Source: Candidatus Nomurabacteria bacterium (GTDB taxonomy: Bacteria; Patescibacteriota; Minisyncoccia; Phycocordibacterales; UBA9973). From it: a stretch of DNA of 33,311 nucleotides. Positions 6,610 through 23,295 of this stretch are shown piece after piece. Under the pieces are notes generated by a model. It was not told where the DNA came from. It saw only the letters and a list, made by a program, of their open reading frames with translations, and did not search any database. A program made the position numbers and the translations under genes. Position 1 is the stretch's first letter. Every line of letters begins with the position of its first letter. The stretch spans positions 1 to 33,311 of the forward strand of contig CALQYS010000010.1 in assembly GCA_943348755.1 (NCBI GenBank), written 5' to 3'.

Positions 6610-6686
6610 GAAGATTCTAAAAATAAATTTTGCCAGAGCATTCTCCTTATGACCTAACGCAGCAAAATTTGATTTTTAGAATCTTC
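6610..6686. repeat. long intergenic inverted repeat (hairpin C)
   Basis: GAAGATTCTAAAAATAAATTTTGC (6610-6633) and GCAAAATTTGATTTTTAGAATCTTC (6662-6686): complementary apart from one bulged base; 28-nt loop. Confidence 0.9.
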
Positions 6687-10709: not shown

Positions 10710-11168
10710 ATGTTATTTTCGAATGAAATTTTAATGAGAATTATTATTGGTGTTTTGGCAGCGTGTGGTTTTTTCGTGGCTTCTCACATTTACAAACACA
10801 AAAAAGCTAAAAAGCCTCTTGTGTGTCCTGTGGGGTTTGATTGTAATTTTGTGGTACACAGTGACTATTCGGAATTCATGCATATACCGCTTGAACTCTT
10901 TGGGATGGGGTATTACGCTCTTCTTTCTCTATTTTATTTTCTTTCTCTATTTATTTTTGATGTTATGCCCATCAAGCTAGCCACTCTTGTGTTGTTGTCT
11001 TCTTTTGGCGCTTTTATCTTTTCCATATATCTTCTTGGTGTGCAAATTTTCGCACTAAAAAAAGGTTGTTCTTGGTGTATCGTATCGGCGGTTATTTCAA
11101 TTTTAATTTTTATCCTAACTGTACTTAACTACGACTTCGGTCATATTGCGCAGATTTTTTCCAAATAG
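10710..11168 (+). CDS. vitamin K epoxide reductase (VKOR) family protein
   Basis: CPVGFDCNFVVHSDYS...GMGYY...GCSWCIVSAVIS; four-TM, CxxC motif. Confidence 0.88.
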   Translation: MLFSNEILMRIIIGVLAACGFFVASHIYKHKKAKKPLVCPVGFDCNFVVHSDYSEFMHIPLELFGMGYYALLSLFYFLSLFIFDVMPIKLATLVLLSSFGAFIFSIYLLGVQIFALKKGCSWCIVSAVISILIFILTVLNYDFGHIAQIFSK

Positions 11169-11270
11169 AAAATAATAAAGTTTTAGAGACTTGGGAGCGC
11201 GACGGCGCGAGCACGAGGAATTTTTTAGCAAAAAAATATCCGTGCTCTAAAACTTTATTATTTTCTATTT
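11163..11270. repeat. palindrome-bracketed dispersed element, copy A
   Basis: Perfect 26-bp arms AAATAGAAAATAATAAAGTTTTAGAG / CTCTAAAACTTTATTATTTTCTATTT around a 56-nt core shared with 23216-23272 (reverse complement). Confidence 0.93.
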
Positions 11271-11293: not shown

Positions 11294-11366
11294 GGTGCCT
11301 ATGGTGTAACGGTTAACACATGAGCTTGTGGAGCTCTTGATCTGGGTTCGATTCCCAGTAGGCACC
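11294..11366 (+). tRNA. tRNA-His (anticodon GTG)
   Basis: GGTGCCTATGGTGTAACGGTTAACAC...TTGTGGA...GGTTCGATTCCCAGTAGGCACC; G-1/C73 compatible. Confidence 0.92.
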
Positions 11367-23192: not shown

Positions 23193-23295
23193 AGCAAAAT
23201 CATTAGTAAATACAGCACGGATATTTTTTTACTAAAAAATTCCTCGTGGGAGCTTACGTCGCGCTCCCAAGTCTGTATTTACTAATGATTTTGCT
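23193..23295. repeat. palindrome-bracketed dispersed element, copy B
   Basis: Perfect 23-bp arms AGCAAAATCATTAGTAAATACAG / CTGTATTTACTAATGATTTTGCT; 57-nt core is copy A's core in reverse orientation. Confidence 0.93.

Follow-up and report, generated by a model that had tools for sequence, protein, structure and literature searches.

We present evidence for small hairpin elements in the Parcubacteria, each consisting of a constant core set between inverted arms that are private to the individual copy. Two of these, copies A and B, lie in the window, by which we mean the entire 33,311-nucleotide stretch of Candidatus Nomurabacteria DNA analyzed here. Comparison of sites between sister species establishes that copies of the core are mobile. 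We incline, with some reserve, to the interpretation that A and B are small non-coding mobile hairpins of Parcubacteria, in which insertion or a later round of hairpin-primed synthesis generates a templated inverted duplication of one flank.

A constant core within private arms

Copy A (11163-11270) and copy B (23193-23295, minus strand) possess arms that are perfect over 26 bp and 23 bp, respectively, and the arms of A are unrelated to those of B (Table 1). Their cores are identical over the first 16 nt and differ at a single position (C/T) in the last 33 nt, with a middle segment of 7 nt in A and 8 nt in B. Direct reading bears out what an earlier note on this DNA had described, namely the recurrence of the core at 23216-23272 on the other strand, this degree of core identity, and perfect 26-bp arms of A unlike those of B; the stop codon of the VKOR gene, which it placed in the left arm of A, is indeed found there (11166-11168 within 11163-11188). 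The 16-mer ACTTGGGAGCGCGACG yields two matches with up to three mismatches as against 0.07 expected from shuffles, and the folding z-scores relative to shuffles are -9.3 for A and -10.0 for B.

Table 1. Coordinates of copies A and B and of the neighboring genes in the window
Feature	Position	Strand	Remarks
VKOR gene (PF07884)	10710..11168	+	stop codon inside the 5' arm of copy A
Copy A, 5' arm	11163..11188	+	26 nt; outer AAATAG is the last VKOR codon plus stop (native)
Copy A, constant core	11189..11244	+	56 nt
Copy A, core hairpin 1	11197..11208	+	GCGC-GACG-GCGC; 4-bp stem with compensatory changes family-wide; GACG loop conserved
Copy A, core hairpin 2	11212..11244	+	CACGAGGAATTTTTTAGCAAAAAAATATCCGTG; compensatory changes family-wide
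Copy A, 3' arm	11245..11270	+	fully complementary to the 5' arm; regarded as its inverted copy
tRNA gene	11295..11366	+	downstream of copy A; anchor for the empty orthologous site in G008
Copy B, 3' arm (core orientation)	23193..23215	-	perfect complement of the 5' arm; probable inverted copy
Copy B, core	23216..23272	-	57 nt
Copy B, 5' arm (core orientation)	23273..23295	-	23 nt; resembles the spacer in the empty species G017

The source genome (G000, 694 kb) contains four strong copies in all, two of them outside the window. Across the family the core shows a two-hairpin fold, with 97.9% of the cells paired and 16 of 17 pairs changed on both sides, values equaled by no shuffle, the alignment having been fitted to this structure, which somewhat favors it. 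At E <= 0.1 a covariance model recovers matches in 78 of the 80 genus genomes and in 172 of the 297 genomes from the order; at E <= 1e-6, a phylum-wide sample of 290 genomes contains 11 with matches. When 85,462 species were scanned for the exact pattern, 58 loci emerged; where their records carry a telling name it is of the Parcubacteria type (Nomura-, Yonath-, Taylor-, Vogel-, Giovannonibacteria, and others), and some are labeled only 'uncultured bacterium'. The genomes compared are species representatives, mostly drafts; an assembly artefact is an unlikely source of the copies, because they occur in many independent assemblies and the gene frames that they interrupt stay open. Rfam returned no match to the core at the gathering score (only tRNAs were detected in the window, and the best sub-threshold match was far below the cut-off), and the open-licence literature yielded no description of such elements in Parcubacteria.

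The privacy of the arms extends to the whole family: among 94 distinct copies, 71 reach an arm score of at least 12, whereas exchanging arms among copies lowers that share to 0.4%. The pairing fraction in this set is 0.97 beside the core and approximately 0.8 at 15-18 nt, after which it drops. What the arms of different copies share is restricted to 3-10 nt at their inner ends (GAG/CTC, frequently AGTTTTAGAG), a stretch that travels with the core; AGTTTTAGAG, the innermost 10 nt of the 5' arm of A, recurs in other copies in this manner. Some subfamilies have conserved inner arms, and in G350 we observed nested arms, wherein copies with a common core and common inner arms differ in their outer arms. 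Neither outcome that would have spoken against the earlier note, an absence of further copies or an ordinary repeat with identical arms throughout, was obtained: a search of the genome and its relatives, with comparison of the arms, recovered further copies whose arms are not the same everywhere. On a genome-wide scale, G000 has 42 inverted repeats with an arm score of at least 15 and a loop of up to 130 nt, as against 0 in one order-1 Markov shuffle. We rejected the idea of a fixed unit with 18-bp arms, which is contradicted by subfamilies with longer conserved stems, and also the capture of arms from elsewhere in the genome, arm matches being no better than those of random windows.

The arms are further patterned in composition: over the 94 copies they are T-rich at 7-10 nt and purine-rich at 17-20 nt from the core, and their outer halves are A-rich across families. 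Copying of random flanks does not predict such a positional pattern, for which target preference or later selection may be responsible.

Filled sites, empty sites, and further hairpin families

The nearest relative of the source genome found here, G008, has approximately 75-80% identity in the flanks. A number of sites carry an element in only one of these two genomes, the other being empty there, and elsewhere different core families occupy the same point. In the genes for dus and cysteine desulfurase the core is inserted in-frame, in both orientations at the same site, and empty alleles exist. Similar in-frame insertions are present in tsaD and uvrD, and in these conserved genes the frame remains open across the element; Pfam confirms the Dus, TsaD, and UvrD identities and, for cysteine desulfurase, the class-V aminotransferase fold. 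The variable loop of dus and cysteine desulfurase is a hot spot, receiving in-frame insertions of many unrelated hairpin families genus-wide (L095-L154). Copies are also frequently placed after genes. Inspection of filled/empty pairs by eye revealed no obvious flanking direct target repeats, and a search among these species representatives for a close genome pair with exact before/after sites found none.

The genomes G000 and G008 contain at least seven further families (F2-F8, among loci L155-L258) with constant cores of 30-85 nt in locus-specific perfect arms; a constant core in private arms is not limited to the core of A and B. One F2 hairpin (CTGCGTTAGGTCATAAGG..GGCTCTTG), with its own locus-specific arms, lies in the window at 6610-6686 on the minus strand. 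The end of the SpoU-type methyltransferase gene is likewise a hot spot, where three species have the A/B core and a further three have hairpins of other types (L038, L086, L009, L216, L234, L321). In G008, tandem GAAAATGCGA repeats directly adjoin an F3 hairpin arm on its outer side (C4:47974, L249) and are absent in G000; they are possibly a trace of the insertion process. A pair of orthologous terminator-like hairpins with perfect 17-bp arms (G000 C1:84788, L207; G008 C8:10453, L231) differs in arm sequence between the species, indicating that ordinary hairpins in these genomes also change both arms together.

Origin of the arms

The most informative sites are those where an arm overlaps the conserved end of a gene. 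At the site of copy A, G008 retains the VKOR and tRNA genes and lacks the element, having a 7-bp inverted repeat there; as the 5' arm of A holds the VKOR end, its 3' arm would be the inverted copy. A comparable case is L007 in G029, whose 5' arm holds the end of GspE (..SEE*): its empty ortholog in G017 has the same GspE end with the right flank directly after it, and the filled site adds beyond the core TTATTCCTCAC, an inverted copy, with the right flank not lost. In L009 of G009 the gene-side arm contains 21 nt from a conserved C-terminus (..FRISNI*) and encodes F-R-I-S-N-I-stop, whose homologs are the ends LFRILDL* (G000), LFRILKI* (G008), and LFRILNL* (G017); 21 of 23 positions of this arm are matched in the opposite one. 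An arm of L172 similarly holds the VQTK* of a conserved gene. At site B, the spacer of the empty species G017 resembles one arm of B (p 0.003), and in G008 an unrelated F8 element copies the same flank as B (0 of 200 shuffles). The exchange of cores between fixed arms at this site (F1 in G000, F8 in G008) was discarded as an explanation, the outer arms being shared via the shared native flank. Pooled over A, B, and L007, the gain of the native-side arm is 50.0 versus 31.1 +/- 6.6 in shuffles, with 9.0 for the opposite arm. For copy A alone the native-arm test is not significant (p 0.18); these p-values are exploratory, as sites and cut-offs were chosen while looking. For the ends of the VKOR, GspE, and SpoU-type methyltransferase genes, comparison of the sequences supports the proposal of a native arm paired with its inverted copy.

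Gene ends lie within the 5' arms of some copies and the 3' arms of others, implying that either flank can be the copied one; a rule that the 5' arm is always native, which A, B, and L007 had suggested, was accordingly dropped. In the other core families, neither arm is recognizable in the empty allele at many sites, some of them examined with two outgroups; pooled, these sites retain a signal (209.5 versus 173.3 +/- 9.3) that is missing from most of them taken singly. The suggestion in the earlier note of one native arm and one inverted copy is supported wherever an arm overlaps a conserved gene end; as several copies of other core families have neither arm recognizable in the empty sister site, the evidence establishes an inverted-copy origin for a subset of the copies.

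These observations can be accommodated by a scheme in which the mobile unit would be the 56-nt two-hairpin core together with a short inner stem, some 3-10 bp in length. By folding back on this inner stem (GAG/CTC), one end of the unit might allow a polymerase to copy approximately 15-25 nt of the adjacent host DNA, and the copied strand would then rejoin the chromosome, either during insertion or shortly afterward. Template switching at a later stage could keep the arms alike and sometimes flip the core, which would explain both the joint divergence of arms and the flipped cores. In a further move the unit may take its inner arms along and acquire new outer ones, as the nested arms in G350 would suggest, and the responsible enzyme may serve several core families in trans.

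A competing account, to which we assign a minor share of the likelihood, is that the arms grow after insertion: the unit would enter with little or no arm, and template switching at the inner stem would copy one flank across, homogenize the arms, and flip the core, making the inverted copy a later mutation. Template switching at inverted repeats is known to homogenize arms and invert spacers (PMC8604942), and both effects are seen here, in the orthologous dus copies, which differ in arm sequence yet remain complementary, and in the occurrence of the core in both orientations at one site; ordinary terminators with perfect arms that differ between orthologs fit the same process. Taken by itself, template switching is a mutational process at existing repeats and does not explain the dispersal of a constant core. 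Against growth after insertion, G350 copies with identical cores are already long-armed, so that growth would have to be fast, and L007 acquired its inverted copy with its right flank intact.

Less probable still is the arrival of a complete hairpin, perhaps out of another genome, whose arms had formed at an earlier site. The joint absence of arms and core from the empty allele at several sites and the conserved inner arms of some subfamilies would agree with such an arrival, but at gene ends one arm is the conserved coding sequence of the host gene itself. Likewise, G350 copies common in core and inner arms differ in their outer arms, which argues that the latter were not inherited from the donor copy.

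That the elements are structured RNAs or bidirectional terminators under selection, with a conserved head and a variable but compensated stem, appears distinctly improbable. The covariation of the core, the placement after genes, and the A-rich 5' and T-rich 3' arm halves, which resemble those of terminators in the same genomes, could all be read in this way; they have to be set against the in-frame copies in both orientations within conserved genes and the variation in both presence and core family between sister species at the same site. An intrinsic terminator would have a GC-rich stem followed by a T run: here the stem is T-rich beside the core, and a T run is lacking downstream of the 3' arms of L007 and L012, in agreement with the view of the earlier note that this does not look like a simple terminator. 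Its further suggestion that the core inserted into hairpins already present is scarcely tenable, as no empty orthologous site has a hairpin of the same arms and coreless tips are C-rich as opposed to the T-rich arm ends beside the core, notwithstanding the existence of coreless perfect hairpins and the short inverted repeat at the copy A site in G008.

Relationship to known elements and implications

We return to the preferred reading of mobile hairpins with a templated inverted duplication of one flank. Among described elements, the Rickettsia palindromic elements (RPEs) are small palindromic dispersed repeats of a reduced genome that form several families and lie in-frame in unrelated genes (PMC10969869), as do our elements in dus, cysteine desulfurase, tsaD, and uvrD. 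RPEs are about 150 bp with a family-conserved sequence, whereas here only the 56-nt core and the innermost arm are conserved and the arms are site-private; RPE sequences also end in CGTC (PMC3733652), whereas GACG/CGTC here is the apical loop. MITEs have conserved terminal inverted repeats, flanked by direct repeats when young (PMC10969869). Our elements are similarly short, non-coding, hairpin-forming, and mobile by site comparison, but past the innermost ~10 nt the terminal arms of one copy bear no relation to those of another, which upholds the earlier note in setting them apart from a standard MITE. Since the terminal arms are not conserved between copies, we group them with the small palindromic mobile elements, outside both RPEs and MITEs.

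The REP/RAYT system also comprises hairpin repeats that are sometimes within genes, with REP stems of 5-13 bp tagged by GTAG or CGTC (PMC3733652). A check for terminal tags located the GACG loop inside the core and GTAG only in an internal loop of one G350 subfamily. Y1 transposases, frequent within the genus, were rejected as a partner, there being no Y1 match in G000, with its four strong copies, or in other carriers such as G021 and G100. Mitochondrial repetitive/double-hairpin elements, too, are dispersed hairpins of small genomes and are described as mobile. To our knowledge, flank-derived, locus-specific inverted arms are not a known feature of these elements.

More tentatively, and at somewhat worse than even chances, we raise the possibility that several unrelated cores together constitute an undescribed class of Parcubacteria mobile hairpins, whose insertion would produce an inverted rather than direct target duplication by fold-back synthesis, with the arms carried along and re-wrapped at the next site; under such a process, the fold-back duplication at each target would give every copy its private arms. 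As far as we know, DNA elements leave direct target repeats or none, and an inverted flank-copy scar is known from no described mobile element. If true, the inverted flank copy would suggest that insertion follows a different chemistry. The elements are widespread among the reduced genomes of the small, mostly uncultured Parcubacteria, a large group, and because they enter dus, tsaD, cysteine desulfurase, and other conserved genes without breaking the frame, they may be a source of new protein segments. They would also illustrate a route by which perfect hairpins with private arms arise, structures that are easily mistaken for terminators or regulatory RNAs.
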